Source: a virus
Virus record (IMG/VR): IMGVR_UViG_3300027747_002867
Location: 1-26,159 of that record
Reading direction: 5' to 3' (one strand)
Length of the DNA stretch: 26,159 nt
The notes under the pieces are model-generated. The model saw nothing but the letters and a program-made list of their open reading frames with translations, searched no databases and was not told the origin of the DNA. The position numbers and the translations under genes are program-made. Shown piece by piece: positions 15,509 to 26,159 of the stretch; position 1 is the stretch's first letter, and every line of letters begins with the position of its first letter.

Positions 15509-15739
15509 ATGGTAACTTATAAAAAATGGTCAATTTCAGAAGTAGAATTTATCAGAGATAACCATACTTTGCTGAATGATGACGCTTTAGCATCAAAACT
15601 TAGTCAAATAACAGGACAAAATATAACAACAGCTATGGTTCGTCGCCAAAGGAGAAAATTATCTCTTAAAAAATCTCGTGGACGACCACCAAAGATAAAA
15701 AATGTTACTAGTCCAATAGAATCTACTGAAAATAACTAA
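15509..15739 (+). CDS. Small HTH protein with AT-hook, 76 aa
   Basis: N-terminal part KKWSISEVEFIRDNHTLLND, then DALASKLSQITG, ITTAMVRRQRRKL, reads like a Myb/SANT or terminase-like HTH. Residues 54-62, KKSRGRPPK, form an AT-hook (core GRP) that binds the minor groove of AT-rich DNA. It is the first rightward gene, divergent from the late operon. It could regulate the divergent promoter or organise phage DNA; this is inference. AGGAAAG lies upstream of the ATG. A terminator follows directly. Confidence 0.72.
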   Translation: MVTYKKWSISEVEFIRDNHTLLNDDALASKLSQITGQNITTAMVRRQRRKLSLKKSRGRPPKIKNVTSPIESTENN

Positions 15740-16135: not shown

Positions 16136-17275
16136 ATGAGAATAAAAAATAGTAAAGATAAAAAGAAAAGAAAAATTAAAACTATTTTAAATGGAACTCA
16201 AGAGCTAAATCTAATTAGTGATTATGAAGAAGGGGTGGCTATATACGAATTAAGAAAAAAATATAATGTATCAAAAACTTACATTAGTAACATGTTCAAA
16301 TTGAGAAAAGTTAAGAAAAGAATAGATTGGTCAGCTATCAAACAGTGGACTATGGTTGATGATGTGGAAGCGATTGGAGAGGGGGCTCATGGGATTTATG
16401 CATTATTTTTTATAAATGTTTTAGATAGCAATAATATAAAACTATATATTGGTAGTAGTACAAATATTAAAACCAGATTAAAATGTCATCTTAGAGAGTT
16501 AAAAACAGATCAACATAAGTCTATAAATTTGTTAAATATATATAGAGATGATAATTATACTATGAGATATGCTATCATAGAGTTTTGTTCTGATAAAGAA
16601 ATTTTGCAGAAAGAGAATGAGTATCTGAGAAAATGGTCTGACAGTTGTTTGTTAAACAGATCCAAACCTACCAATAAGGAAGATGTGGGGCCTTGGCTGG
16701 AGGCTGTATTAAAAAATAAAGCATATAGAGATGGATACATAATTAATAATGAAACAGAGTGCAAGGAGAGTGTGAGCGTATCTAAGAGCGGATATGGTCA
16801 AGTAAAAGTAACTCTTGGGGGATCTGGTATTACAGGAAAAGGGGTAACAAAATATTTTACTAAACACCGGGTGGCCTTTTGGGAAAAGAATGGAAGTTAT
16901 CCAGAGTTAATAAGACATAAGTGTAGGAATAAGAAATGTTATAATCCTGATCATTTAGAGTCTGGGAATCATAGAGATAATAATTTGGATAATCGAGGGG
17001 ATTTTCCAGAAGTTTTTGAGAAAGTATGGTTAGAATTAAATGGAGATTTGGAAAAGTTAACAGAACATTTCTCTAGCAGGTGGAAAAGCTCTCAACTGTG
17101 GCGAGGTAAAGCAGTATCTTATTCTGTATATGACTGGGAGAAGAAGCTGGATCTAAGGAAAAAGTATCCAGAGGTGCTGGACGCTAATAGTGACAGAAGA
17201 TTTAGTTTGTCTTATCAGAAACTAGGAAGAAGTAGAAAGAAGAAACATAAGGGGCTACCTCCAAGGTTTAGCTAG
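16136..17275 (+). CDS. HTH + GIY-YIG + HNH fusion endonuclease, 379 aa
   Basis: Three parts in one chain. Residues about 20-60 (EEGVAIYELRKKYNVSKTYISNMF) are an HTH. Residues 86-162 are a GIY-YIG nuclease: GIY 86-88, YIG 104-106, R114 and a candidate catalytic Glu at 160 or 162. Residues about 218-285 are an HNH domain of the phage type: TKHRVAFWE with H244, then H261, C263, C268, N270-P-D-H273 and N282. The C-terminus is helical and basic (RSRKKKHKG). Homing endonucleases usually carry one nuclease class. The gene is AT-rich and stands alone between the exported protein and the early region, as a selfish insertion would. AGGAG precedes the ATG. Confidence 0.85.
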   Translation: MRIKNSKDKKKRKIKTILNGTQELNLISDYEEGVAIYELRKKYNVSKTYISNMFKLRKVKKRIDWSAIKQWTMVDDVEAIGEGAHGIYALFFINVLDSNNIKLYIGSSTNIKTRLKCHLRELKTDQHKSINLLNIYRDDNYTMRYAIIEFCSDKEILQKENEYLRKWSDSCLLNRSKPTNKEDVGPWLEAVLKNKAYRDGYIINNETECKESVSVSKSGYGQVKVTLGGSGITGKGVTKYFTKHRVAFWEKNGSYPELIRHKCRNKKCYNPDHLESGNHRDNNLDNRGDFPEVFEKVWLELNGDLEKLTEHFSSRWKSSQLWRGKAVSYSVYDWEKKLDLRKKYPEVLDANSDRRFSLSYQKLGRSRKKKHKGLPPRFS

Positions 17276-17366
17276 TACATTTATTTTAAAGTCTCCTTAC
17301 TATTTATAGACCTCCCGGCGTTTTTTATGATTCTTAAAAAATTGACCTATAAAATAGAAAAACCCC

Positions 17367-17556
17367 CTAAGTCTATATGAGACAATGACTTAGAAGCTAT
17401 TTACTACCAAAAATTTGACGTAAGTACTTATATAGCAATGACTTACGACGAGTTTTTGCTGAATTTTATCTATCTTATCAGAGCAAATGGTGTGCCAAAC
17501 TAAAATAAAAAATTTTGGCATGAATTTTGCACTAGAAACCTTACGAAAATGTAAGG
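17367..17556. repeat. Intergenic cassette 1 (H1-H2-H3-H4)
   Basis: H1: CTAAGTC (17367) / GACTTAG (to 17393). H2: CGTAAGT (17419-17425) / ACTTACG (17441-17447), followed by TTTTT at 17453. H3: inverted arms at 17482-17498 and 17515-17531; the right arm reads TTGGCATGAATTTTGCA, a sigma-54-type -24/-12 element (GG 17517-17518, GC 17529-17530), and the left arm gives the same on the minus strand. H4: CCTTAC-N6-GTAAGG (17539-17556), 11 nt before the -35. The gene-free stretch 17,276-17,366 before it shows nothing else convincing. Confidence 0.85.
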
Positions 17557-17567
17557 AAAGATTTTGA

Positions 17568-17595
17568 TTGACATTGAAGATGGAGATGGTATAAT
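17568..17595 (+). promoter_or_regulatory. Early promoter, cassette 1
   Basis: TTGACA (17568-17573), 16-bp spacer, TATAAT (17590-17595), followed by GTCGATATAAGA and an almost pure purine leader up to the ATG at 17632. Confidence 0.88.
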
Positions 17596-17631
17596 GTCGA
17601 TATAAGAGAAAAGGAAAAAGAGGAAAAGAAA

Positions 17632-17865
17632 ATGGAAAACATGATTGTGCTGAACACTGTGGCTGAACTGAGAGAATTTCTTGACAACACTAGCCTTTCC
17701 ACTTTGGTTGGTAGGGTTGCTTTTGCTTCCGATTTGCTGCAAAAGGTTCGTGAGAGTGGATACAACCAAATTTGCATCGATGAAGAATTGGGATTTATGG
17801 ATGATGGTGGTTGGATCGAAGTGGATGAAGTTGGATATGTTGTGGATGATTTTGCAATCAACTGA
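17632..17865 (+). CDS. Unknown early protein, 77 aa
   Basis: Acidic, soluble, probably alpha-helical in the first half (VAELREFLDN, VGRVAFASDLLQKVRE) with an Asp-rich C-terminal half (DEELGFMDDGGWIEVDEVGYVVDDF). No known motif. It stands alone between two promoters. The ATG at 17632 is preceded by GAGGAAAAGAAA; a second ATG three codons on (MIVLNT) is possible. The more GC-rich codon use, compared with the 16,136 gene, is shared by the early genes that follow. Confidence 0.75.
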   Translation: MENMIVLNTVAELREFLDNTSLSTLVGRVAFASDLLQKVRESGYNQICIDEELGFMDDGGWIEVDEVGYVVDDFAIN

Positions 17866-17874
17866 GGGGTCAAA

Positions 17875-17931
17875 CCTTACGGTATTGTAAGGAAACTTTT
17901 CGCTTGCAAGTTCAAGAATGTCTGGTATAAT
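17875..17931 (+). promoter_or_regulatory. H4 hairpin and early promoter, cassette 2 (minimal)
   Basis: CCTTAC-ggtatt-GTAAGG (17875-17892) begins 9 nt after the previous stop. It is followed by TTGCAA (17904-17909), a 16-bp spacer and TATAAT (17926-17931), then GTCGATATAAGA. No H1, H2 or H3 here. Confidence 0.85.
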
Positions 17932-17975
17932 GTCGATATAAGAGTAAGAGAAGAAAAAGAAAAGAGAGAATGAAA

Positions 17976-18179
17976 ATGGAAAAGGTTATGAGTGTCAATG
18001 GTTTCATCGGTTCGCTTCCCAAGATTCGCAAGCGTAAGATTTGGAGTGTCATCATTGACGGAAAGATTGTTCAAGGCGTGAGTGCCTCTGATAATCGTAA
18101 GGAAAGTGCACAAGCGTATATCGCTAGCAAGTACCCTGGTCAAGTGTTCACCCTCAAGTTCGTTGAGTGGAGAATCTGA
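17976..18179 (+). CDS. NGFI-LPKI family early protein, 67 aa (paralogue 1)
   Basis: Small basic protein with SVNGFIGSLPKI at the N-terminus, a VIIDGKIVQGVSA beta strand pair, DNRKESAQAYIASKY helix and a VFTLKFVE strand. It is clearly paralogous to the 74-aa protein at 20,313 (SINGFIATLPKI, DNRKSSAQAYI, KY-x-GQ-x-x-TL). The ATG at 17976 is chosen over 17970 because GAGAG then has 7-nt spacing and the two paralogues align from residue 1. Function unknown. An alpha/beta fold resembling a small nucleic-acid-binding domain is possible. Confidence 0.78.
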   Translation: MEKVMSVNGFIGSLPKIRKRKIWSVIIDGKIVQGVSASDNRKESAQAYIASKYPGQVFTLKFVEWRI

Positions 18180-18211
18180 ACACTAGTATAGTAGTGAACA
18201 AAGATTTGACG

Positions 18212-18403
18212 TAAGTCCTTGCTGCTAAAGGACTTAGGAAAAATTTTCGGCGCCAAAATCGACGTAAGTGCTTATGCTGCAATGACTTACAACGAGTTTT
18301 TCTTAAATACTACCTATCTTACCAATAGCAAATGCTATGCCAATCAAGAAAAAAGTTTTTTGGCATGCAATATGCTCATGAGAAACCTTACGATATTGTA
18401 AGG
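18212..18403. repeat. Intergenic cassette 3 (H1-H2-H3-H4)
   Basis: H1: TAAGTCCTT (18212-18220) / AAGGACTTA (18228-18236), perfect 9-bp stem. Linker: an AATTTT/AAAAT-type stem around CGGCGCC. H2: CGTAAGT (18263) / ACTTAC (to 18290), T run 18297-18301. H3 arms 18327-18343 and 18360-18376 (right arm TTGGCATGCAATATGCT, one base off the -12 consensus). H4: CCTTAC-gatatt-GTAAGG (18386-18403). Confidence 0.88.
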
Positions 18404-18412
18404 TTCAAGCCA

Positions 18413-18440
18413 TTGACGCTCACAAGCCGATATGTATAAT
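18413..18440 (+). promoter_or_regulatory. Early promoter, cassette 3
   Basis: TTGACG (18413-18418), 16-bp spacer, TATAAT (18435-18440). The downstream GTCGATATAAGA element is absent; the sequence reads ACAGACATGAGAACG instead. Confidence 0.82.
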
Positions 18441-18479
18441 ACAGACATGAGAACGAACGACAAAGAAAAGGGTATGAAA

Positions 18480-18659
18480 ATGAAGATTGGTGATTTTGTT
18501 TTTGCAGAATACGATAACGGTGAAATCGTCAATGGGGAAGTGGTGAACGTTCGCAACTTTGGTGAACGTGTTCTCTTGACGGTAAAGGCTGAGCAAGGGT
18601 TTCGGTCGATCTATCTTGACAAGTGCATCACGTTTGACCACATGCAAGCCGCTAACTAA
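18480..18659 (+). CDS. Small beta-barrel-like early protein, 59 aa
   Basis: MKIGDFVFAEYDNGEIVNGEV then VLLTVKAEQGFRSIYLDKCITF reads as a five-strand SH3/KOW-like barrel (IGDFV-x-A, G-x-V-V-x-V, L-x-x-CITF). The frame is open from further upstream, but that overlaps the promoter. The ATG at 18480 has AAGGG 7 nt upstream, whereas 18474 would leave only 1 nt. First of three closely spaced genes. Function unknown; a nucleic-acid or protein-binding adaptor is possible. Confidence 0.7.
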   Translation: MKIGDFVFAEYDNGEIVNGEVVNVRNFGERVLLTVKAEQGFRSIYLDKCITFDHMQAAN

Positions 18660-18673
18660 CAAAGGGCAAAGCA

Positions 18674-18823
18674 ATGAAAACGATCTACTGGAATACTTCG
18701 AATCGTGCTGGTGATCGGTATGAGGTATGGTATGGTGGTGTGGTAATCGCTCGACATATCACGTTTAATGAATGTTGGGCACTTGTCGAATCTCTCCAAG
18801 CAAAACAAGAGGCTATCGTATGA
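18674..18823 (+). CDS. Unknown small protein, 49 aa
   Basis: ATG at 18674 with AAAGGG 7 nt upstream; stop at 18821-18823. The sequence begins MKTIYWNTSNRAGDRYEVWY and ends LQAKQEAIV: a beta hairpin (YEVWYGGVVIARHI) followed by a helix (FNECWALVESLQAKQE), a compact beta-beta-alpha fold. It overlaps the next gene by ATGA. No known family recognised. Confidence 0.65.
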   Translation: MKTIYWNTSNRAGDRYEVWYGGVVIARHITFNECWALVESLQAKQEAIV

Positions 18824-18912
18824 TCGTTGTAGACTTGATCGCCTGTACACTACTCACTGTACTCATGTATAGGTTCTTTGTGGTCGTTGGAGAACTGTAC
18901 GAAACGCTATAG
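18820..18912 (+). CDS. Tiny membrane protein, 30 aa
   Basis: ATG overlaps the previous stop (ATGA), so translation is probably coupled. The 30 residues start MIVVDLIACTLLTVLMYRFF and form one hydrophobic segment with an acidic end (GELYETL). Single-pass inner-membrane microprotein, one of five in this early region. Function unknown. Confidence 0.55.
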   Translation: MIVVDLIACTLLTVLMYRFFVVVGELYETL

Positions 18913-18942
18913 CTATACGCTTGTACAGTATACCGAACAATT

Positions 18943-19136
18943 CGACGTAAACCCTTACTGCTAAAGGACTTGCGACGAATTTGCGGCGCAAAATTTGACG
19001 TAAGTGCTTACGTAGCAACAACTTACGACGAGTTTTTCTAGAATCCTTTCTATCTTACCATAGCAAATGCTGTGCCAAACTAGAAAAAGTTTTTTTGGCA
19101 TGATATTTGCTGTACGAACCTTACGAAATTGTAAGG
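18943..19136. repeat. Intergenic cassette 4 (H1-H2-H3-H4)
   Basis: H1 (about 18943-18976): CCTT (18953-18956) / AAGG (18964-18967) inside TTCG/CGAA outer bases. Linker stem ATTTGC-ggc-GCAAAAT. H2: CGTAAGT (18999) / ACTTACG (19021-19027), T run 19033-19037. H3 left arm AGCAAATGCTGTGCCAA (19062-19078), right arm TTGGCATGATATTTGCT (19095-19111; GG 19097-19098, GC 19109-19110). H4 19119-19136 (CCTTAC-gaaatt-GTAAGG). This is the best-formed copy. Confidence 0.88.
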
Positions 19137-19147
19137 AAACTTTTCGC

Positions 19148-19175
19148 TTGCAACCTGAATATCCTTTGGTATAAT
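19148..19175 (+). promoter_or_regulatory. Early promoter, cassette 4
   Basis: TTGCAA (19148-19153), 16-bp spacer, TATAAT (19170-19175), then GTCGATATAAGA and a purine-rich leader with AAAGGG before the ATG. Confidence 0.87.
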
Positions 19176-19213
19176 GTCGATATAAGAGAAAAGAGAAAGA
19201 AAAGGGTATAAGA

Positions 19214-19408
19214 ATGGAAAAGACAGTGTTTTACGTTTCCGATTGCTGTAATGCTGAAAGCAATGTCGATCATGAGATTTGCTCCCAGTGCGGTGAACAC
19301 TGCACGATCATTGTGGACGACAGCATCGAAGCCGACTACATTCCCGGCCTTGACGATGGCGAATGGGATAGCGACGAGGATTTTTGCGGCGAAGAAGACT
19401 TTGCCTGA
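19214..19408 (+). CDS. Zinc-ribbon-like acidic protein, 64 aa
   Basis: VSDCCNAESNVDHEICSQCGEHC contains Cys at 11, 12, 22, 25 and 28, a CC ... CxxCxxxC pattern as in small phage zinc ribbons. The C-terminal 30 residues are very acidic (DDGEWDSDEDFCGEEDF). GGG lies 7 nt before the ATG, as in neighbouring leaders. A zinc-stabilised knuckle with an acidic tail could bind host transcription or DNA proteins; this is inference. Its stop lies 1 nt before the next H4 hairpin. Confidence 0.72.
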   Translation: MEKTVFYVSDCCNAESNVDHEICSQCGEHCTIIVDDSIEADYIPGLDDGEWDSDEDFCGEEDFA

Positions 19409-19409
19409 A

Positions 19410-19466
19410 CCTTACGGTATTGTAAGAAAACTTTTTGCTGGACATTGAAAAACTGTTTGGTATAAT
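19410..19466 (+). promoter_or_regulatory. H4 hairpin and early promoter, cassette 5 (minimal)
   Basis: CCTTAC-ggtatt-GTAAGa (19410-19427; 5-bp stem) directly after the stop, then TGGACA (19439-19444), a 16-bp spacer and TATAAT (19461-19466). The start-region element is a variant here (GCACACATAAGAG). Confidence 0.8.
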
Positions 19467-19507
19467 GCACACATAAGAGAACGATAGAACCTAAGAAAGA
19501 AAAGAAA

Positions 19508-19885
19508 ATGAAAACCAAGTTCCCCATCATTGAAAATGCCAAGCGTCAAGCCCGAATGATCTTCAAGGGTATTGCAATCCCTATGCTGGTCGAAATCCCC
19601 GATGATCGAATCACGGAAGATACCGATTACGTCTATGGTGTGGATGATCAGAAGCGTTACGTTGTGAGCGAAAAGGTAATCAAGTTCAATCGTACTGCCT
19701 TGAAGAATCTTGGCAAAGTTCGCAAGGAAAAGGTTGACCCCCGCTACGCAGGGGGTGAGGATACCATGATCGTTCCGGTTGGCAAGCCGGGAAGCCGTGA
19801 ACGTGTTGAGGAACTAGCCAAGCAGTATGGTGCGGTCGCTCATCTGGAACTTAGCCCGTTCAGCTTCAAGGGAGAGGATGAATGA
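19508..19885 (+). CDS. Unknown early protein, 125 aa
   Basis: Basic N-terminal half (MKTKFPIIENAKRQARMIFKG) with an AIPMLVEIPDDR strand, a central DTDYVYGVDDQKRYVVSEKVIKFNR and a C-terminal helix (GSRERVEELAKQYGAVAHL). No motif recognised; alpha/beta and soluble. GC content and codon choice are higher than in the late genes. Its stop overlaps the next gene (ATGAATGA). The leader is purine-only apart from one CC. Confidence 0.72.
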   Translation: MKTKFPIIENAKRQARMIFKGIAIPMLVEIPDDRITEDTDYVYGVDDQKRYVVSEKVIKFNRTALKNLGKVRKEKVDPRYAGGEDTMIVPVGKPGSRERVEELAKQYGAVAHLELSPFSFKGEDE

Positions 19886-20022
19886 ACGATTGTACACTAG
19901 TATACGACGTTATACAGGATCGTGAGCGTTGGGTGAGGGATACATATGTACACTTGTATCCTAAGCTCTACCTACCCGTTTGGGTGGGTACTGAACGAAT
20001 ATACAGACGACGCAAAACTTGA
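19882..20022 (+). CDS. Unknown small protein, 46 aa
   Basis: ATG overlaps the previous stop. The protein begins MNDCTLVYDVIQDRERWVRD and ends ERIYRRRKT: aromatic and basic, without a membrane segment. Its TGA lies inside the TTGACGTAA that opens the next cassette, so the cassette supplies its stop. Short and without homologue known to me, so coding status is moderately sure. Confidence 0.5.
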   Translation: MNDCTLVYDVIQDRERWVRDTYVHLYPKLYLPVWVGTERIYRRRKT

Positions 20023-20175
20023 CGTAAACCCTTGCTACCAAAGGACTTATGACGAATTTTCGGCGCAAAATTTGACGTAAGTGCTTATGCTGTAAAGACT
20101 TATGACAAATCCTCATAGCAAATGCTGTGCCATGATTTTTGGCATGATAATTGCACGTAGCAAATACTGTGCCAA
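20023..20175. repeat. Intergenic cassette 6 (H1-H2-H3 with extra arm, no H4)
   Basis: H1: 20023-20051 (CCTT ... AAGG). Linker stem AATTTT-cggcgc-AAAATT. H2: CGTAAGT (20076) / ACTTAtG (to 20104). H3 left arm 20117-20133, shortened spacer, right arm TTGGCATGATAATTGCA (20139-20155; GG 20141-20142, GC 20153-20154), then a second left arm AGCAAATACTGTGCCAA (20159-20175). H4 is missing. The rest up to the promoter is AT-rich, with an unpaired TTGACA at 20213. Confidence 0.85.
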
Positions 20176-20238
20176 TCGTACTCAAAATTACGAAAAGTTT
20201 TGTCAAAATTTCTTGACAATATTCTTGGAATTTTTCTC

Positions 20239-20266
20239 TTGCAATCTAAAGAATCGATGGTATAAT
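20239..20266 (+). promoter_or_regulatory. Early promoter, cassette 6
   Basis: TTGCAA (20239-20244), 16-bp spacer, TATAAT (20261-20266), then GTCGATATAAGA and a leader of almost only A and G up to the ATG at 20313. Confidence 0.87.
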
Positions 20267-20312
20267 GTCGATATAAGAAGTAAGAGAGAAAGAAAGAAAG
20301 AGAAAAAGAAAA

Positions 20313-20537
20313 ATGGAAAAGAATACTAGCATCAACGGTTTCATCGCTACCCTTCCTAAGATTGTCGAAAAGAAAGTTTGGAAAGTGACCGATCAAGATG
20401 GTACGGTTGTTCAGTATGTTGGTGCTACCGATAATCGGAAAAGTTCTGCACAAGCGTACATTGACCAAAAGTATGTTGGTCAAAATCTTACCCTGACGTT
20501 TTCGCACTTCAAGGGATTGATGACCCTCCCCCGATAA
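20313..20537 (+). CDS. NGFI-LPKI family early protein, 74 aa (paralogue 2)
   Basis: TSINGFIATLPKI, then VWKVTDQDGTVVQYVGATDNRKSSAQAYIDQKYVGQNLTLTF, matches the 67-aa protein at 17,976 through most of its length; the last 10 residues (KGLMTLPR region) are its own. It has the same promoter type. The two copies lie about 2.3 kb apart with different neighbours, as expected if a gene and its cassette were copied together. The stop lies inside the CCCCC/GGGG hairpin of the next promoter. Function unknown. Confidence 0.78.
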   Translation: MEKNTSINGFIATLPKIVEKKVWKVTDQDGTVVQYVGATDNRKSSAQAYIDQKYVGQNLTLTFSHFKGLMTLPR

Positions 20538-20572
20538 GAGGGGATTGACAACGCGGAAAAGTTTGATAGAAT
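20529..20572 (+). promoter_or_regulatory. CCCC/GGGG hairpin promoter (type B), first copy
   Basis: CCCC (20529-20532) and GGGG (20540-20543) flank a 7-nt loop GATAAGA. Directly after come TTGACA (20545-20550), a 16-bp spacer holding GGAAAAGTTTG and TAGAAT (20567-20572). The same arrangement recurs at 21,929. Confidence 0.82.
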
Positions 20573-20598
20573 TTTGGAAAGAGAAAGAGAGAAAGAAA

Positions 20599-20796
20599 AT
20601 GAATTTTGGATACGAAACTTGGCATACGATGAAGTTTGGCAATACCACTGCAACCTTCAAGGTTTATCCTAGTGGTTCCTTCGTGATTCAGACCATCCTG
20701 CGTGATGGAAAGAATGTTACCGATAGCCTCTTGGCTAATCGTAGTATCTCTGGATTGATTCGGTTCAATGTCGCCAATAATCTTATCAAGTATTGA
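20599..20796 (+). CDS. Unknown early protein, 65 aa
   Basis: Starts MNFGYETWHTMKFGNTTATF, with strands FKVYPSGSFVIQTI and a C-terminal helix (GLIRFNVANNLIKY). The frame is open from 20545, but that lies in the promoter. The ATG at 20599, after a purine-only GAGAAAGAGAGAAAGAAA leader, is the start. First of four genes in this unit. Function unknown. Confidence 0.7.
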   Translation: MNFGYETWHTMKFGNTTATFKVYPSGSFVIQTILRDGKNVTDSLLANRSISGLIRFNVANNLIKY

Positions 20797-20806
20797 AAGA
20801 ATTCTA

Positions 20807-20920
20807 ATGATTACAGCTATTGAATATGTTCAACTGTTTGCTCTGATTGCTGGGTGTGCTTTTATCACCTATACTGTGCATGAAGTGGGTAATGCTATTC
20901 ATTCCATGCTGAACGACTAA
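20807..20920 (+). CDS. Small membrane protein, 37 aa
   Basis: ATG at 20807, stop 20918-20920. The N-terminal 24 residues (MITAIEYVQLFALIAGCAFI and on) form one membrane segment; the rest (HEVGNAIHSMLND) is hydrophilic and helical. Shine-Dalgarno weak. Function unknown. Confidence 0.55.
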   Translation: MITAIEYVQLFALIAGCAFITYTVHEVGNAIHSMLND

Positions 20921-20941
20921 TTCCATAAGAAAGAAAACAAT

Positions 20942-21259
20942 ATGACACACTATGAAGCAGTGAAAATGGTTCGTGGTAAGACTAATAAGGATACTCGCAA
21001 GGTTGGTAACAATACCTATGCTGAAATTCTTCCTGATGGTAGCGTAGGCATCATGCTGCATAGTACCTATGTGGTAAAGATTCATCCTGACAATAGTGCT
21101 ACCCTCAATAGTGGGGGTTGGCATACTGCAACAACTAAGGATAGAATCAACCAGTATTCGCCCGTGCGAGTATATCAACGCAAGGGAGAATGGTATCTGG
21201 AGAGTGGCCTAGAGTATGAAGATGGTATGGTTGTGGCTGATAACAATCTGATCTACTAA
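20942..21259 (+). CDS. Widespread phage protein (LNSGGW-TTKDRIN family), 105 aa
   Basis: Contains RKVGNNTYAEILPDGSVGIM, LHSTYVVKIHPDNSATLNSG, GWHTATTKDRINQY and later VYQRKGEWYL. This pattern is a recurrent unnamed family in phages and their hosts, recognised by LNSGGW followed by TTKDRIN. Its activity is not known to me. It is a beta-rich, soluble protein in the middle of a four-gene unit. Confidence 0.78.
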   Translation: MTHYEAVKMVRGKTNKDTRKVGNNTYAEILPDGSVGIMLHSTYVVKIHPDNSATLNSGGWHTATTKDRINQYSPVRVYQRKGEWYLESGLEYEDGMVVADNNLIY

Positions 21260-21272
21260 ACAAAGGAAACAA

Positions 21273-21461
21273 ATGTTCACTACAGAAAATACTCCGCGAT
21301 ATGGGCAAACCGTGATGCACCGCTCTAAGGTTGTTACTGTACGTTCGTTCATGGGTGTGCTTGCGGATGCTGTATATGGTACGGCAAATGCGTGGGCATC
21401 TGTACAGGATGAGGATGGGAACGTATACAACTGTTCACTATATGAGCTGAGTCCGACGTAA
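21273..21461 (+). CDS. Small beta-rich protein, 62 aa
   Basis: AAAGGAAACAA precedes the ATG. PRYGQTVMHRSKVVTVRSF, then WASVQDEDGNVYNCSLYEL, resembles a small SH3-like barrel, as in the 59-aa and 57-aa proteins nearby. Its TAA stop is formed by the ACGTAA that opens the next H1 hairpin, so the repeat abuts the coding end. Function unknown. Confidence 0.7.
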   Translation: MFTTENTPRYGQTVMHRSKVVTVRSFMGVLADAVYGTANAWASVQDEDGNVYNCSLYELSPT

Positions 21462-21640
21462 ACCCTTGCTGCCAAAGGACTTAGGACAAGGCGGGCGCGC
21501 CACGCTCGACGTAAGTGCTTATGCTGCAACGACTTACGACAAATCATCATAGCAAATCCTATACCAGTTTTTTTGGCATGAAAATTGCATAGAGCAAATG
21601 CTGTGCCAAAACCAATCATGAACCTTACGAAATTGCAAGG
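21456..21640. repeat. Intergenic cassette 7 (H1-GC linker-H2-H3 with extra arm-H4)
   Basis: H1: 21456-21485. Linker is GC-rich and holds the palindrome GGCGCGCC (21494-21501). H2: CGTAAGT (21510) / ACTTACG (to 21538), here without a T run. H3 left arm degenerate (21551 on), right arm TTGGCATGAAAATTGCA (21573-21589; GG 21575-21576, GC 21587-21588), second left arm AGCAAATGCTGTGCCAA (21593-21609). H4: CCTTAC-gaaatt-GcAAGG (21623-21640), one mismatch. Confidence 0.85.
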
Positions 21641-21662
21641 AAACTTTTTCTGGTCTACCCTA

Positions 21663-21691
21663 TTGACATTGGACGATAATTATGGTATAAT
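21663..21691 (+). promoter_or_regulatory. Early promoter (type C), cassette 7
   Basis: TTGACA (21663-21668), 17-bp spacer starting TTGGACGATAAT, TATAAT (21686-21691), then GATAGGACAAGAAAG. Shares the spacer sequence with the promoters at 23,088 and 23,330. Confidence 0.87.
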
Positions 21692-21719
21692 GATAGGACA
21701 AGAAAGAAAAGGAATGAAA

Positions 21720-21938
21720 ATGAGAAAGCCTCCAAAAAGTTCGACCGTCAAGGGTAAGATCAACGCCTATGCCTACAAGTGTGGATTTTCGTTCCACCCC
21801 CAAAATGATGGGACGTATGCTCTGTTCGACATTCACATGGGATACTACGTTTGCCGTGGTTCGCATGATCGTGTTGTCCAGTTTGTTATCGATGAATTGT
21901 GGGCAAAATATTATCGCTCACAACCGACCCCCGTATAA
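21720..21938 (+). CDS. Unknown basic early protein, 72 aa
   Basis: Starts MRKPPKSSTVKGKINAYAYK, continues FSFHPQNDGTYALFDIHMGYYVCRG and ends in a helix (HDRVVQFVIDELWAKYY). This layout (strand, DGTYALFD hairpin, helix) recalls small phage proteins with a swapped-hairpin or RHH-like fold, but no family is assigned. AAGG lies 7 nt before the ATG at 21720; the ATG at 21714 is too close to it, and upstream in-frame codons lie in the promoter. Confidence 0.72.
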   Translation: MRKPPKSSTVKGKINAYAYKCGFSFHPQNDGTYALFDIHMGYYVCRGSHDRVVQFVIDELWAKYYRSQPTPV

Positions 21939-21973
21939 GAGGGGTTGACAGTGGTGGAAAAGTTTGGTAAAAT
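21929..21973 (+). promoter_or_regulatory. CCCC/GGGG hairpin promoter (type B), second copy
   Basis: CCCC (21929-21932) / GGGG (21941-21944), loop GTATAAGA, then TTGACA (21945-21950), a 17-bp spacer again containing GGAAAAGTTTG and TAAAAT (21968-21973). The hairpin spans the stop codon of the gene before. Confidence 0.8.
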
Positions 21974-21993
21974 AATTGAAACAGGAAAACAAG

Positions 21994-22167
21994 ATGCAAA
22001 AGATTATGGTTGGCGATGTGGTTCAAGTAGTCAGCGGGTATGGTAATGTCCAGCAAATAGTCGGAAAGAATATTAAAGTTCAGATTTCCGGCCGATTCGA
22101 AGGTGAATGGTATACGCTTGACCAGATTGTGTCTCATGCCTATCTGAGCAAAAAGAAAAGTAATTGA
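21994..22167 (+). CDS. Small beta-barrel-like protein, 57 aa
   Basis: VGDVVQVVSGYGNVQQIVGKN then IKVQISGRFEGEWYTLDQIV has the spacing of a KOW/SH3-like barrel (GD-x-V-x-V, G ... IVGK, W-Y-x-L-x-Q-I). AGGA lies 7 nt before the ATG at 21994; the TTG further upstream overlaps the promoter. Compare the 59-aa protein at 18,480. Function unknown. Confidence 0.7.
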   Translation: MQKIMVGDVVQVVSGYGNVQQIVGKNIKVQISGRFEGEWYTLDQIVSHAYLSKKKSN

Positions 22168-22192
22168 CAATACAAAAACAGTTTGGTAGAAT
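22164..22192 (+). promoter_or_regulatory. Early promoter overlapping a stop codon
   Basis: TTGACA (22164-22169) shares bases with the TGA stop of the 57-aa gene (22165-22167). A 17-bp spacer containing CAGTTTGG precedes TAGAAT (22187-22192). Confidence 0.83.
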
Positions 22193-22218
22193 AAAAACAC
22201 AAGAAAGAGAGAATGAAG

Positions 22219-22500
22219 ATGTTTGAAGATGTGAAGTTCAAGGTAAGATTCGATGGTTTTGAACAGCCGTATACTGATACGATTGAGAAAGCTATCAAGT
22301 GGTATATTCTTGGTGTGAAAGGTAGTGCTCAATATAGGGTAGATTTACTCTATAGTGTAGATGGTGGAAATGAATGGATTATGTATGAGAGTCAGCATAA
22401 TAAAACTCTGAAAGATAGCAACTTTGCAGAAGCTATGCTGAATGATCTGTCTAGTCAGATTATGGAGCTTGCAGACTATTCTCCCGGAGATGAGGGCTAG
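22219..22500 (+). CDS. Unknown early protein, 93 aa
   Basis: Starts MFEDVKFKVRFDGFEQPYTD; an AIKWYILGVKGSAQYRVDLLY alpha/beta centre, then VDGGNEWIMYESQ and an acidic helix (FAEAMLNDLSSQIMELADY). No motif known. GAGAG gives 7-nt spacing to the ATG at 22219 but 1 nt to the ATG at 22213, so the second is chosen. Its 3' end forms the left half of a GC-rich hairpin. Confidence 0.72.
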   Translation: MFEDVKFKVRFDGFEQPYTDTIEKAIKWYILGVKGSAQYRVDLLYSVDGGNEWIMYESQHNKTLKDSNFAEAMLNDLSSQIMELADYSPGDEG

Positions 22501-22519
22501 TCTTAGCTAACCCTCCGGG
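22483..22519. terminator. GC-rich hairpin across a stop codon, possible weak terminator
   Basis: CCCGGAG (22483-22489) and CTCCGGG (22513-22519) form a perfect 7-bp stem with an inner GGCTA/TAGC pairing around the TAG stop. Only TTTGGG follows, so termination would be weak. It may instead protect the mRNA 3' end. Confidence 0.45.
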
Positions 22520-22559
22520 TTTGGGTAGGGTGGGTATAGTCAGCCTAAAGTCAGAGCCC

Positions 22560-22588
22560 TTGACGGGCCGATAACAATAGTATAGAAT
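22560..22588 (+). promoter_or_regulatory. Early promoter
   Basis: TTGACG (22560-22565), 17-bp spacer with CCGATAACAATAG, TAGAAT (22583-22588). The -35 lies in a GCCC-TTGAC-GGGC dyad. AAAGGAG and an ATG follow. Confidence 0.8.
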
Positions 22589-22606
22589 GGTGCAAAGGAG
22601 AAGAAT

Positions 22607-22780
22607 ATGAGAATGATTGAATATCCGTTTATGTTGGTTATGGGGGCTTTTCTTAAGGTTATGGAAACTATGTGTGAGGTTTGGCAGAGAATTAATGAAT
22701 ATGAGAATATGAAGTCTAGGGGTTATACTCTTATGAAAAGTGATAAGGGTGATGATTTCTGGGTAGGTTATGGGGATTGA
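22607..22780 (+). CDS. Unknown small protein, 57 aa
   Basis: AAAGGAG 6 nt before the ATG; stop 22778-22780. The N-terminal half (MRMIEYPFMLVMGAFLKVME) is amphipathic to hydrophobic and Met-rich; the C-terminal half (KSRGYTLMKSDKGDDFWVGY) is polar. It may lie on a membrane. No family recognised. Confidence 0.62.
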   Translation: MRMIEYPFMLVMGAFLKVMETMCEVWQRINEYENMKSRGYTLMKSDKGDDFWVGYGD

Positions 22781-22807
22781 CCACTTAAACAAAATGGAGA
22801 TACAGGG

Positions 22808-22915
22808 ATGTATCAATTCGATTTTATTAGCGTTGCTTTTGGCTACATTTGTGGTATTGTATTGTATGCTAGTATGTCAAATATCATGTATATGGAGGAA
22901 AATGATGAAAATTAG
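22808..22915 (+). CDS. Tiny membrane protein, 35 aa
   Basis: GGAG (8-nt spacing) precedes ATG 22808. Residues 1-20 (MYQFDFISVAFGYICGIVLY) form a membrane segment, followed by an acidic MEENDEN end. A different frame over the same DNA is also open (from 22794, 62 aa with two hydrophobic stretches) but has no Shine-Dalgarno, so two short genes are preferred. Confidence 0.45.
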   Translation: MYQFDFISVAFGYICGIVLYASMSNIMYMEENDEN

Positions 22916-22982
22916 TGATTATATTCTATTAGGGGTATGCTTTATACTTGGCTGCACAATGACGTATCTCCTTCACCAGTAA
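22905..22982 (+). CDS. Tiny membrane protein, 25 aa
   Basis: GGAGG lies 6 nt before ATG 22905, a strong site. The chain starts MKISDYILLGVCFILGCTMT and is one membrane segment ending LLHQ. It overlaps the end of the previous small gene by 11 nt. Its TAA stop is the first element of cassette 8. Confidence 0.55.
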   Translation: MKISDYILLGVCFILGCTMTYLLHQ

Positions 22983-23066
22983 GGACTTACGTCGAGTCCG
23001 GCCCGCCCCGCGAAGCGTAAGTGCTTATGCTGCAACGACTTACGATAATCTTACGACATTGTAAGG
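22982..23066. repeat. Intergenic cassette 8 (reduced H1, GC box, H2, H4)
   Basis: H1 remnant GGACT (22983-22987) / AGTCC (22995-22999). GC box CGGCCCGCCCCG (22999-23010), the exact reverse complement of the boxes in cassettes 9 and 10. H2: CGTAAGT (23016) / ACTTACG (to 23044), no T run. H4: CTTAC-gacatt-GTAAG (23049-23066 with a wobble pair). No sigma-54-like arms. Confidence 0.82.
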
Positions 23067-23087
23067 AAACTTTCCTGTTCATAGGTA

Positions 23088-23116
23088 TTGACACTGGACG
23101 ATAATAGGTATAGAAT
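23088..23116 (+). promoter_or_regulatory. Early promoter (type C), cassette 8
   Basis: TTGACA (23088-23093), 17-bp spacer starting CTGGACGATAAT, TAGAAT (23111-23116), then GATAGTACAAGAAAGAAAAGG. Confidence 0.85.
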
Positions 23117-23144
23117 GATAGTACAAGAAAGAAAAGGCTAAAAA

Positions 23145-23333
23145 ATGTTTTCTCCGATGGAAAAGATTTGGATGGGTCTTGGATTGCAAGGCGCTCTTGA
23201 AATGATGGATGCTTCGTGCTCCCTGTGCGAAAGGCTCACGGAAGAATGTGTTGAGAATCCCTCAGTGAAGGATGCTTTGATTCAAAGCATTGCTACTGAA
23301 ATTATTTCTGGTCGTCAACTAATTGCCTCTTGA
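23145..23333 (+). CDS. Unknown small helical protein, 62 aa
   Basis: Starts MFSPMEKIWMGLGLQGALEM; all-helical prediction with Cys at 25 and 28 (CSLCERLTEEC, plus C35), perhaps a metal or disulphide site. AAGG lies 7 nt before the ATG. Acidic and soluble. The stop lies within the next -35 box (TTGACA), so the next promoter overlaps this gene's end. Confidence 0.7.
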   Translation: MFSPMEKIWMGLGLQGALEMMDASCSLCERLTEECVENPSVKDALIQSIATEIISGRQLIAS

Positions 23334-23358
23334 CACTGGTCGATAATAGATGTATAAT
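23330..23358 (+). promoter_or_regulatory. Early promoter (type C) overlapping a stop codon
   Basis: TTGACA (23330-23335), 17-bp spacer starting CTGGTCGATAAT, TATAAT (23353-23358). Same spacer family as 21,663 and 23,088. Confidence 0.86.
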
Positions 23359-23395
23359 CGCAACATCACGAACGGAAACCACAGGAACCAGAATC

Positions 23396-23569
23396 ATGCT
23401 GAACTTCGACGAGATCAACGATATTCTGAACGACATGGCAGAGCAGGGGATTGTGGAGCCGATGGTTGAGCCTATCGACGATCCCAGTGTGGAAGTCAAC
23501 TTTTGGGATTGGGCCGATGTTGTGGGTGCTATTGACGACTTTGTTCCAGAGGAGTATACTGATGCTTAG
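23396..23569 (+). CDS. Acidic early protein, 57 aa
   Basis: Starts MLNFDEINDILNDMAEQGIV; Asp/Glu-rich throughout (VEPIDDPSVEVNFWDWADVV, EEYTDA) with no Lys or Arg. ATG at 23396 with AGGA 9 nt upstream; in-frame codons further upstream lie in the promoter. Precedes a second, even more acidic protein in the same unit. Function unknown. Confidence 0.7.
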   Translation: MLNFDEINDILNDMAEQGIVEPMVEPIDDPSVEVNFWDWADVVGAIDDFVPEEYTDA

Positions 23570-23633
23570 TGCGATTGCTTTTGTTGTGGGCTATATTGGT
23601 TTGTTTTACATTACTACCATCGTGAGGGATTGA
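23562..23633 (+). CDS. Tiny membrane protein, 23 aa
   Basis: AGAGGAG lies 7 nt before ATG 23562, one of the best ribosome sites in this region. The chain (MLSAIAFVVGYIGLFYITTI then VRD) is a single membrane helix with a basic-acidic end. It overlaps the end of the 57-aa acidic gene. Short enough to escape routine gene calling. Confidence 0.55.
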   Translation: MLSAIAFVVGYIGLFYITTIVRD

Positions 23634-23635
23634 CC

Positions 23636-23911
23636 ATGAGCTACGAATACGACGATCTTGAAGACTTTTATGGTATCGACGCCGATGATCGTACTAATGA
23701 TTATTGGGCTGGAGATGATGACTTGGAGAATGATTCTAATGATTCGTTTGATGATAGTATGGATGGTGATGCTGAGTCTGCGTTGGCTTCCGCTGGATGG
23801 GGAACCGACGAAGACTATGGTTACTATGGTGACGATGGAGTAGAAGATTTCCACGCAGATGAGGCTGTCGGATTCGTTGATTATAACGATGATGGCCCAT
23901 ATGATGATTGA
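23636..23911 (+). CDS. Extremely acidic early protein, 91 aa (possible DNA mimic)
   Basis: 34 of 91 residues are Asp or Glu, with one Arg and no Lys. Segments such as DDLEDFYGIDADD, WAGDDDLENDSNDSFDDSM and EDYGYYGDDGVED alternate acidic and aromatic or small residues. GAGGG lies 7 nt before the ATG at 23636, which is 2 nt after the membrane peptide's stop. Phage anti-restriction and anti-host proteins such as Ocr and Arn are acidic DNA mimics, so that role is plausible, but the residues are also consistent with a disordered binding protein. Confidence 0.72.
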   Translation: MSYEYDDLEDFYGIDADDRTNDYWAGDDDLENDSNDSFDDSMDGDAESALASAGWGTDEDYGYYGDDGVEDFHADEAVGFVDYNDDGPYDD

Positions 23912-23930
23912 CTGAACCACTCTCCATAAA

Positions 23931-24028
23931 CCCTTTGTGCGTAAGCACTTAGGGCTGGCGGGGCGGGCCGCTTTTGATGTAAGTCCTTATGCTGCAATAC
24001 TTTACGAAAACCTTACGAAATTGTAAGA
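23931..24028. repeat. Intergenic cassette 9 (H1, GC box, H2, H4)
   Basis: H1 variant: CCCT and GTGC (23931-23940) pair with GCAC and AGGG (23945-23954), two T-T mismatches. GC box CGGGGCGGGCCG (23959-23970). H2 degenerate: GTAAGT (23979) / ACTTTAC (to 24005). H4: CCTTAC-gaaatt-GTAAGa (24011-24028). No sigma-54-like arms. Confidence 0.78.
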
Positions 24029-24039
24029 AAACTTTTTAG

Positions 24040-24067
24040 TTGACAGCTAAAGTTTCTCTGCTATACT
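24040..24067 (+). promoter_or_regulatory. Early promoter, cassette 9
   Basis: TTGACA (24040-24045), 16-bp spacer GCTAAAGTTT..., TATACT (24062-24067), then TGTCGATATAAGAG. Near twin of the promoter at 25,005. Confidence 0.85.
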
Positions 24068-24103
24068 TGTCGATATAAGAGATAGAGAAAGAGAGAGTGA
24101 AGA

Positions 24104-24325
24104 ATGAGTTGGAATGAGTATCGGATGAGTAGGGATATGTGGGGTAATGTGAAGCATGAGCATATTCATGTTGGTTGGACTGTGACGTTTGATATGGATG
24201 GTAAGCGTTACTCGTGGAATCTTAATGCAAAGTATAGAACTAGGATTGACGTTGAGCGTAGGGTTTTTGAGAAGTATCCTACTGCTGCTAATGTTCGTTG
24301 CAACAAGAATATTTGTGAAGTTTGA
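24104..24325 (+). CDS. Unknown basic early protein, 73 aa
   Basis: Starts MSWNEYRMSRDMWGNVKHEH; IHVGWTVTFDMDGKRYSWNL gives a beta hairpin, followed by a helix (RIDVERRVFEKYP) and CNKNICEV. Soluble, basic and aromatic. No family recognised. First of four genes in this unit; the leader is GAGAGAGTGAAGA. Confidence 0.72.
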   Translation: MSWNEYRMSRDMWGNVKHEHIHVGWTVTFDMDGKRYSWNLNAKYRTRIDVERRVFEKYPTAANVRCNKNICEV

Positions 24326-24335
24326 AGGGAATAAA

Positions 24336-24548
24336 ATGAGACAGTTAACCAAAAACGAAATAGCCGATCTAGAATTTGATGCTGAACTTATGGGTTTTAG
24401 GGTGGTGTATCTTCCTAAGCCTCTTGACTGGAATCATTTTATATTGTATTATCTCAAGCCAGAGTTGACTTATGTTGGTCACTATCGTGGTTTGAATGAA
24501 GTTAAAATGGGTATGCAGAAGCATTATAGACCAGAGGTACAGAAATGA
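24336..24548 (+). CDS. Unknown early protein, 70 aa
   Basis: Starts MRQLTKNEIADLEFDAELMG and continues FRVVYLPKPLDWNHFILYYL, then GLNEVKMGMQKHY. AAGGGA lies before ATG 24336, 10 nt after the previous stop; the longer upstream frame overlaps the previous gene and is not used. Alpha/beta, aromatic, function unknown. Its TGA overlaps the next ATG. Confidence 0.68.
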   Translation: MRQLTKNEIADLEFDAELMGFRVVYLPKPLDWNHFILYYLKPELTYVGHYRGLNEVKMGMQKHYRPEVQK

Positions 24549-24700
24549 CAAACGAAGAAAAGTGGATTGAATATCGTCGTTCTGTTGGATTATCCGATAA
24601 GTCTCCAGAAATCGAAAACGGTTGGGATAAGGAACATAATTGTTCTAACCGAGTTGCTCGATTAATTTACATAAACGATTCTGATACTTATGGAGATTGA
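24545..24700 (+). CDS. Unknown small protein, 51 aa
   Basis: ATG overlaps the previous stop (ATGA) and its own TGA overlaps the next start (TGATG), so three genes are chained by coupling. Starts MTNEEKWIEYRRSVGLSDKS and ends RLIYINDSDTYGD. Polar, helical N-terminus, no known motif. Confidence 0.62.
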   Translation: MTNEEKWIEYRRSVGLSDKSPEIENGWDKEHNCSNRVARLIYINDSDTYGD

Positions 24701-25002
24701 TGATAAATATGAATGGAAATAATCCACATTGGCCATATTGGCTGAGTAATACCATAAACTTTACCTATAATGGTAAGGATGTGTGGGGTACGATTATGAA
24801 GTTTGGTAATGGTTTTGTGACTCTAATCACTAAAGACGGTTATCGTAACTATTCTTGGAATAAAATGACCCCAACAGTACTGTACTCTTGTGCAGTGAGC
24901 GAGCTGATCAAACTGTATCAGTGGCATAATGATGATCGCTTTAAGTATCTTTATGACCACTATGGCCCTTATGTTCAGCCCTATCCTTGGAAAGAAGATT
25001 AG
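24700..25002 (+). CDS. Unknown early protein, 100 aa
   Basis: Starts MINMNGNNPHWPYWLSNTIN; strands FTYNGKDVWGTIMKFGNGFVTLI then GYRNYSWNKM, followed by a helix (SCAVSELIKLYQW) and a Tyr/Pro-rich end (HYGPYVQPYPWKED). Rich in Trp and Tyr. ATG at 24700 is coupled to the previous stop; ATG 24709 is an alternative. No family recognised. Confidence 0.7.
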   Translation: MINMNGNNPHWPYWLSNTINFTYNGKDVWGTIMKFGNGFVTLITKDGYRNYSWNKMTPTVLYSCAVSELIKLYQWHNDDRFKYLYDHYGPYVQPYPWKED

Positions 25003-25004
25003 GC

Positions 25005-25032
25005 TTGACAGCTAAAGTTTTTATGGTAGAAT
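25005..25032 (+). promoter_or_regulatory. Early promoter
   Basis: TTGACA (25005-25010) two bases after the previous stop, 16-bp spacer GCTAAAGTTT..., TAGAAT (25027-25032), then GTCGATATAAGA and an all-purine leader with GAGG. Confidence 0.86.
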
Positions 25033-25060
25033 GTCGATATAAGAAGAAGAGGAAAAGAGA

Positions 25061-25204
25061 ATGAAAACTGAAAAGAAACCATTGACGAATCACCAGAAAG
25101 CTGTTATGCTTATGGAACGTGAAGCTAATCGTGCGATTGCTCGCGTGAATCTGTTGGAAAAGTTGTATCTGGAAACCCTGAAAGCAAAGGAATTGGCGAA
25201 ATGA
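25061..25204 (+). CDS. Small basic helical protein, 47 aa
   Basis: Starts MKTEKKPLTNHQKAVMLMER and continues as one amphipathic helix with Leu/Ala heptad-like spacing (RVNLLEKLYLETLKAKELAK), so a short coiled coil is likely. Purine leader with GAGG before the ATG; stop overlaps the next start (ATGA). Function unknown. Confidence 0.65.
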   Translation: MKTEKKPLTNHQKAVMLMEREANRAIARVNLLEKLYLETLKAKELAK

Positions 25205-25431
25205 AGTGCGTTGTTACCCATACTGATACTTATGGCGGTGAAGCTAACTATGGTTGGGTGAATCGTTATGAATTCATCCCCAAGAAAAATGCTAGCCAGC
25301 GTAGCGTTATTCGTAAGGCTAAGGCTTTGGCAGGTATGACAGCCGTAAAGTCTGAAACCTACGATTATGGTGATGGTTATACCGTTAAGCCACGCGGCTA
25401 TGCTCAAATCATCTTTGTTGATTTTGAGTAA
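25201..25431 (+). CDS. TDTYGGEANYGWV-type phage protein, 76 aa
   Basis: VVTHTDTYGGEANYGWVNRY followed by a basic helix (SQRSVIRKAKALAGM) and a C-terminal strand (YAQIIFVDFE). The TYGGEANY-W motif recurs in small phage and bacterial proteins without a defined role. Coupled to the 47-aa gene by ATGA. Soluble alpha/beta protein. Confidence 0.75.
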   Translation: MKCVVTHTDTYGGEANYGWVNRYEFIPKKNASQRSVIRKAKALAGMTAVKSETYDYGDGYTVKPRGYAQIIFVDFE

Positions 25432-25448
25432 ACTATCCTCGTCGTAAA

Positions 25449-25523
25449 CCCTTTGTGTTCAAGCACTTAGGGCCGACGGGGCGGGCCGGTTTTGACGTAA
25501 GTTCTTATCCTATATAGAGTTAT
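25449..25523. repeat. Intergenic cassette 10 (H1, GC box, degenerate H2)
   Basis: H1 variant CCCT (25449-25452) ... AGGG (25469-25472), inner GTG/CAC. GC box CGGGGCGGGCCG (25477-25488). H2 starts CGTAAGT (25496 area), but the right arm has decayed (AGAGTTATGG). No H3 or H4. The remaining ~30 nt before the promoter show nothing. Confidence 0.72.
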
Positions 25524-25552
25524 GGCAAAAGAAAAATTTGTCACTAAATCTA

Positions 25553-25580
25553 TTGACAATAGCCGATACTCCTGTAGAAT
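25553..25580 (+). promoter_or_regulatory. Early promoter, cassette 10
   Basis: TTGACA (25553-25558), 16-bp spacer, TAGAAT (25575-25580). The following leader is short with a strong AAAGGAGG, unlike the polypurine leaders elsewhere. Confidence 0.84.
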
Positions 25581-25604
25581 GAGCTAACCAAAGGAGGATA
25601 AGCT

Positions 25605-26132
25605 ATGTTTACGATGAAGCATCTTAAGAAGGTTTTGCCAGAGATCAAAGGATATGATCGTAAGAGTTTGTATTCTATGCGAAAGAATACGATGTGCTGT
25701 ATACTCAGTCAAATGCCGAGCCGTCATCGTGGCACAGCAATTGAGAGTATTGTGAGAGATGAACTGATTACAATGGGTTTTCGAGTTGATCATCTTGGCG
25801 GCAGTCATTCTTTCGATATGAGAGTTGATGGATACAGGGTTGAGGTGAAGTCGTCTTTGGCCCACTCTAAGATTTCTTTGCGAACTAAAAAGGTTTCATA
25901 CCATTATAATTTCCAGAATATTAAAACCAATTGTTTCGACTATCTGGTTTTAGTATTTGTTCAGCCGAAGGGTTTGTTGATTCGTATGCTAACGCAAGAA
26001 GAAGCCGAATATGCTACGCGATTTAATCTTAGAGGTAGGGAAGGTAAGAGTTTGCATCTTGATACTGATGCTCATAAGATTCCGGGCGAATCTTTCGAAA
26101 AGTTTTGGAAAGAAAGTTTTTCTGTAGCATGA
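25605..26132 (+). CDS. PD-(D/E)XK-type nuclease, 175 aa
   Basis: RGTAIESIVRDELITMGFRV has the helix with conserved Glu (E47). GGSHSFDMRVDGYRVEVKSS provides D71 and the E80-V-K82 signature, and FDYLVLVFV is the following core strand. Together they form a restriction-endonuclease-like (PD-(D/E)XK) core. The N-terminal 40 residues are basic, and the C-terminal part (LTQEEAEYATRF on) is helical. AAAGGAGG gives strong translation. A role in host DNA degradation, recombination or exclusion of other phages fits the early position. Specificity cannot be told. Confidence 0.78.
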   Translation: MFTMKHLKKVLPEIKGYDRKSLYSMRKNTMCCILSQMPSRHRGTAIESIVRDELITMGFRVDHLGGSHSFDMRVDGYRVEVKSSLAHSKISLRTKKVSYHYNFQNIKTNCFDYLVLVFVQPKGLLIRMLTQEEAEYATRFNLRGREGKSLHLDTDAHKIPGESFEKFWKESFSVA

Positions 26133-26138
26133 GAACTT

Positions 26139-26159
26139 AAGTCCTTGTCTCTAAAGAAC
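26139..26159. repeat. H1 hairpin of a further cassette, cut by the window edge
   Basis: TTAAGTCCTT and TAAAGAAC flank GTCTC; with the expected following TT the arms would pair in 7 of 8 positions, as in the other H1 copies. It begins 7 nt after the nuclease stop, so another cassette probably continues to the right. Confidence 0.6.

Follow-up and report, generated by a model that had tools for sequence, protein, structure and literature searches.

Dyad elements linked to early promoters have reportedly been described in T4-type phages as promoter early stem-loops (PeSLs), a name that citing papers attribute to Arbiol 2010 and Comeau 2014. As summarized in one later account (PMC4503421), an early promoter and a dyad element lie between small genes and are linked to gene shuffling. 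Among mycobacteriophages, Cluster K genomes carry extended start-associated sequences (ESAS), paired imperfect inverted repeats of 17 bp with a variable 4- to 13-bp spacer, which precede a subset of non-structural genes beside the 13-bp start-associated sequence (SAS) at the start codon and whose half-site consensus varies between subclusters (PMC3203893). Cluster O mycobacteriophages have more than 30 copies of a 17-bp dyad, the presumed binding site of a dimeric regulator, while stoperators are asymmetric sites oriented with transcription (PMC4351075). In phi29, the p4 sites are imperfect inverted repeat pairs bound by a phage regulator in the region that holds early and late promoters of the host RNA polymerase (PMC3100819). 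Here we analyze an array of repeated dyads, designated H1 to H4, in IMG/VR record IMGVR_UViG_3300027747_002867, a stretch of 26,159 bases (hereafter the window) that is a piece of an uncultured large-phage clade with contigs of up to 238 kb. On balance, we read this array as a set of DNA operators governing early transcription units and keeping them apart, and not as a series of RNA hairpins.

The original prediction had described repeated regulatory cassettes before strong promoters, between small genes, and its account of their composition holds. The window contains eight complete H1-H2 blocks, a ninth block that starts at about 26130 and is truncated by the end of the window, eight H4 elements, five H3 elements, and a series of plus-strand sigma70-type promoters, in the module order that had been given. 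Exact CTTAC-N6-GTAAG occurs seven times, versus 0.04 expected by chance, and the H2 core six times, versus none in 100 shuffles. In relatives the array continues past the position where the window ends, and 10 complete or near-complete arrays have 15 to 25 blocks each, spaced about 1 kb apart. In each of three whole genomes, 17 to 25 blocks form a single cluster over 19 to 22 kb near the structural genes, and a whole-genome search (E up to 10) found none outside the cluster. When loci were instead chosen by their terminase, blocks were present in 26 of the 31 that have 9 kb of upstream DNA; this sample gave 333 block hits upstream of the terminase, the two strands of the same block being counted separately, and none in 736 kb downstream. 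Even the most distant relatives, with terminases at 54 to 55% identity, keep the blocks.

Each block spans 90 to 96 bp and consists of H1 and H2 joined by a linker, as a rule G/C-rich. It is built from four half-sites, CGTAAGTCCTT or its reverse complement, in alternating orientation around this center, with the outer half-sites leaning to CGTAAA and the inner ones to CGTAAG. Sixty copies less than 72% identical align without gaps over 90 columns, and 484 of 495 hits to a hidden Markov model show no change in length. As H1 and H2 together form one ungapped unit, they are better handled as a single element. Taken whole, the block forms an almost perfect dyad and scores alike on either strand. 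Its TAA/TTA positions are nearly invariant, and most copies retain A-C and C-A mismatches midway along the H1 stem, which is the behavior of recognized DNA half-sites rather than of a stem conserved for pairing.

The block was further examined for covariation, its orientation being set by promoters and terminase. Compensatory changes in the stems had been proposed as a check on the hairpins, and they do not favor them. In a scan of all possible helices across 125 copies, the top signal by far (Z 10.6) is not an H1 or H2 stem but the dyad that the inner half-sites, H1R and H2L, form across the linker. Within it, G-T mismatches (1 versus 21 expected) are avoided as strongly as A-C mismatches (13 versus 47 expected), which is not RNA-like, since selection for RNA pairing would tolerate G-T. 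Pairing in the H2 stem is less frequent than in shuffled columns. Whole-block folding energy shows no strand bias (p 0.69), whereas phage tRNAs are biased (p 1e-5), and Rfam covariance models gave no match at E up to 1. Together with the phasing of H4 described below, the pairing and folding results mostly fail to support the proposal that the modules are RNA stem-loops, and we hold a DNA-operator mechanism for the block with moderate confidence.

The placement of the blocks is as regular as their anatomy. The array holds strong sigma70-type promoters at about 5 to 8 times the density seen outside it, and all but one of them lie on the array's strand. A promoter follows within 200 nt of 80% of 187 blocks, compared with 34% of random positions. 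The block starts at a median of -4 nt relative to the stop codon of the upstream open reading frame (ORF) and ends a median of 58 nt upstream of the -10 box, hence not at the start codon. This distribution bears on two further explanations. A pair of imperfect palindromes, inverted relative to each other around a short center and present in many copies per genome, would also describe a non-autonomous mobile element spreading in the manner of a repetitive extragenic palindromic doublet forming hairpins (REPIN) or a miniature inverted-repeat transposable element (MITE); however, in every relative examined the copies are clustered at a single genome position, and their placement relative to promoters and stop codons is mostly constant, making this origin very improbable. 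A partition site is unlikely because block positions follow those of promoters and stop codons.

H4 likewise points to DNA recognition. The common GTAAG/CTTAC core proposed for H1, H2, and H4 stands for H1 and H2 (GTAAG...CTTAC), but H4 has the arms in the opposite order, CTTAC-N6-GTAAG. The gap between the arms is N6 in 264 of 270 strand contexts, compared with 2 of 26 in shuffled sequence, where any gap occurs; as the sample was selected for intact arms, it is this spacing and not the conservation of the arms that counts as evidence. Among 67 non-redundant pairs of H4 and promoter, the spacing between H4 and the -35 element is 1 nt (4 pairs), 9 to 13 nt (43 pairs), or 20 to 24 nt (20 pairs), with none at 2 to 8 or 14 to 19 nt. 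The best period is 10.5 to 11, with R 0.88, or 0.81 once similar promoters are collapsed to 28. H4 is thus helically phased with the -35 element, as would suit a protein in contact with RNA polymerase. Calculated from these spacings, the operator center lies near -44, -55, or -66 from the start site, where contact between a dimer and RNA polymerase is feasible, and shifts of whole helical turns in promoter distance are a feature of class I activator-type operators that H4 shares. The orthologues of ORF 19508 share closely similar promoter bodies, yet their H4 spacing differs: six relatives have 1 nt, whereas the window and three further relatives have 12 nt; at other genes the distance is 10 to 12 and 23 nt. 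Furthermore, AAACTTTT, found after many H4 copies, accompanies H4 rather than the promoter. A DNA-operator mechanism for H4 is one in which we have good confidence.

Several observations weigh against the operator reading, some of them in favor of RNA. In the inner 50 nt of the block, plus-strand RNA folds better than minus-strand RNA (p 1e-5), and the all-helix scan gave weaker local-pairing signals (Z 5 to 7) around H1 and inside the linker, so that an RNA role for the block is possible. A run of at least four T residues follows 44% of blocks, versus 9% of random positions. Block-promoter phasing is weak (R 0.20 to 0.36), many strong promoters in relatives lack H4, and kinship among the sequences inflates every significance value. 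The genes are taken to be early from their sigma70-type promoters and small size, and no protein that binds the block or H4 was identified, a 76-residue helix-turn-helix (HTH)-like protein discussed below being a candidate only.

The T runs, and the way the blocks abut stop codons, make a terminator role of the block possible. They are what would be expected of PeSL-type cassettes, in which the block, or H2 and H3, serves the upstream gene as an intrinsic terminator, an early promoter comes next, and the module travels with its own terminator-promoter unit. The block also folds below its shuffles (mean z -2.1). Yet the T run lies at no fixed distance from the hairpin and no association of A runs with T runs is seen; in the window, where the best H2 copies had been said to be followed by T runs, one closely follows H2 in just three of the eight copies. 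The H2 stem also pairs below chance, the main dyad is intolerant of G-T pairs, a terminator would not call for a linker of fixed length, and the phasing of H4 would be left unexplained.

Gene shuffling was assessed in 13 arrays with the blocks masked, using neighboring 200-bp tiles that both have a match. At 350 bp, colinearity is lost across 23% of blocks, 12% (12 to 14%) of other gene boundaries at similar distance, and 1% of positions within genes; the excess fades at longer distances. Because the counts are not independent, and because co-regulated genes staying together would look alike, support for a PeSL-like shuffling role of the blocks is weak. The PeSL logic of the original prediction is supported in its promoter association and, weakly, in the tendency of synteny to break at cassettes, but mostly not in its RNA stem-loops, and we regard PeSL-type terminator cassettes as a rather unlikely account of the array as a whole.

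Within the window, all features of the array lie on the plus strand. The complete blocks occupy positions 17362-17451, 18206-18295, 18942-19031, 20019-20108, 21453-21542, 22959-23048, 23921-24010, and 25439-25528, and the truncated ninth begins at 26130-26159. The first is a degenerate copy, with an H1 of the ACCCCCTAAGT type and a linker that is not G/C-rich. The TAA of the fifth block is the stop codon of ORF 21273-21461, and the left arm of the sixth lies within the 3' end of the ORF stopping at 22982. Counted from the end of GTAAG, the putative H4 operators stand 12 nt before the -35 element that opens the promoter at 17539-17556 (promoter 17568-17595, TTGACA-16-TATAAT), 17875-17892 (17904-17931), 19119-19136 (19148-19175), 19410-19427 (19439-19466, the promoter at whose orthologues some relatives have the 1-nt spacing), and 24011-24028 (24040-24067), each of these promoters having an extended -10. 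The distance is 10 nt for H4 at 18386-18403 (promoter 18413-18440), 22 nt at 23049-23066 (23088-23116), and 23 nt for a copy with one mismatch at 21623-21640 (21663-21691, extended -10). Two further promoters lie at 20239-20266, with an extended -10, and at 25553-25580, after block 8. As had been predicted, the H4 copies at 17,875 and 19,410 are without a block, no H4 is present at 20,175, and H3 occurs in the first five cassettes and in none from 22959 on.

H3, AGCAAAT-N4-TGCCA...TGGCA-N5-TTTGC, is found at 17482-17531, 18325-18376, 19060-19111, 20116-20176, and 21550-21610, the last two being a short-loop form with an extra half-site and the fourth having no H4 after it. Its loops measure 7 to 8 or 15 to 18 nt, about one helical turn apart in a sample of only 14 copies, which suggests a phased half-site pair here too. 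We also note a second promoter type, designated H5, in which a CCCC...GGGG dyad of variable loop stands directly before the -35 element, both in the window (20529-20572 and 21929-21973) and in many relatives. The dyad lies 1 to 2 nt from the -35 element in 70 of 87 promoter-linked matches, overlapping matches being counted repeatedly, and H5 may be another phased operator.

A candidate DNA-binding protein adjoins the array. This conserved 76-residue HTH-like protein with an AT-hook-like tail is encoded at 15509-15739 on the plus strand, although it could also be small-terminase-like, its best fold match being a small-terminase domain at weak significance (E 0.7). In five relatives (L015, L031, L052, L155, and L172), the half-sites are altered to AAGACTTTACG or CGTAAACTCTT in many blocks while H4 is as usual, and block and H4 are therefore probably read by different proteins. 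The recognition-helix region of the HTH-like protein is unchanged where the half-sites have become AAGACTTTACG/CGTAAACTCTT, which speaks against it as the block reader; for this reason, and given its fold match, it stays a mere candidate.

The same protein enters into an explanation by stoperator-like immunity or shut-off, by which a phage repressor on the blocks would bring early transcription to a halt, whether late in infection or in the lysogen. Multiple sequence-specific sites in intergenic regions that share one orientation, next to an HTH-like protein, fit such a scheme. Known stoperators, however, are asymmetric and directional (PMC4351075), the block is a near-perfect dyad, and the fold of the supposed repressor points, at weak significance, toward a small-terminase domain; we consider this explanation improbable.

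The surroundings of the array are those of a large phage. The minus strand of the window encodes the terminase, portal, capsid, and further structural proteins. At the point where gene orientation turns, positions 14656-15309 encode a protein with a weak match to sigma factor region 2; after this protein and the HTH-like protein come the small plus-strand genes. The array region is probably the early (host-takeover) region of the phage. At the array edge, a single ORF at 16136-17275, shared by only 11 sampled relatives, has both GIY-YIG and HNH nuclease domains. Within the array, a 105-residue protein (20942-21259) has a match just under the cut-off to Kyanoviridae Gp96, and tblastn finds relatives of it in Caulobacter phage terminal-repeat genes and in Pseudomonas phages.

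Terminase relatives, at 54 to 91% identity, are present in 46 of 50 H4-carrying contigs, the longest being 238 kb. A terminase scan of IMG/VR returned at least 600 matching stretches, indicating that the group is common in public metagenomes, yet a cultured relative was not found: at the DNA level the region matches no cultured phage, except for one marginal short hit, and the portal protein has no match whatever. Among known phages, the terminase is 22 to 34% identical, approximately, to those of Bacillus, Staphylococcus, and similar phages, with none T4-like among the matches listed. As to the host, psbA is absent from the 16 relatives checked, and two relatives (L187 and L188) lie inside metagenome-assembled genomes labeled Flavobacteriales and SAR202, labels that disagree and may reflect mis-binning. 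One relative (G047, positions 81201-100883, loci L075-L076) has a 6,560-residue ORF among its minus-strand genes.

Under the DNA-operator reading, each cassette would act in a set order. The 90- to 96-bp block would close the upstream transcription unit and would most simply be the site of a multimeric sequence-specific DNA-binding protein. An optional H3 dyad may follow, and then an optional H4 operator on the same helix face as the strong sigma70-type promoter, where a bound dimer could touch RNA polymerase and so raise or lower its firing; the promoter and a few small genes would complete the unit. The array may even represent an undescribed system of early-gene control, a tentative proposal for which we would claim less than even chances: about 20 four-half-site dyads, each bound by a multimer and insulating or shutting off one small unit, combined with exchangeable phased operators (H4 and perhaps H5) that yield tunable promoters and swappable modules. 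The array in any case marks precisely the phage's probable takeover genes, and orthologous promoters one helical turn apart in operator spacing offer a natural experiment on promoter architecture. If proteins do bind, it would also supply natural operators in large number and show how small gene modules are swapped without loss of control.

Compared with the described systems, the array shares with PeSLs an early-type promoter directly downstream of a dyad, between small genes. It differs in that its phage is unrelated and not T4-type, and in that its block, a dyad of four half-sites, is constant in length, lacks a conserved U tract, and is joined by a phased operator, H4. The block is like ESAS in being a pair of imperfect inverted repeats with half-sites that vary among relatives, but its center is fixed in length and it lies upstream of the promoter. 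Whereas Cluster O dyads are distributed genome-wide, about one-third of them inside genes, those of the array occur in a single cluster and are associated with promoters. The p4 sites of phi29 serve one control region, in contrast to about 20 in the array, and differ in sequence. With Cluster A phages such as L5, the array has in common many regulatory sites in a single phage, although its sites are symmetric and composite. Agreeing in every feature with none of these, the system resembles a cross between PeSL cassettes and repeated phage operators.

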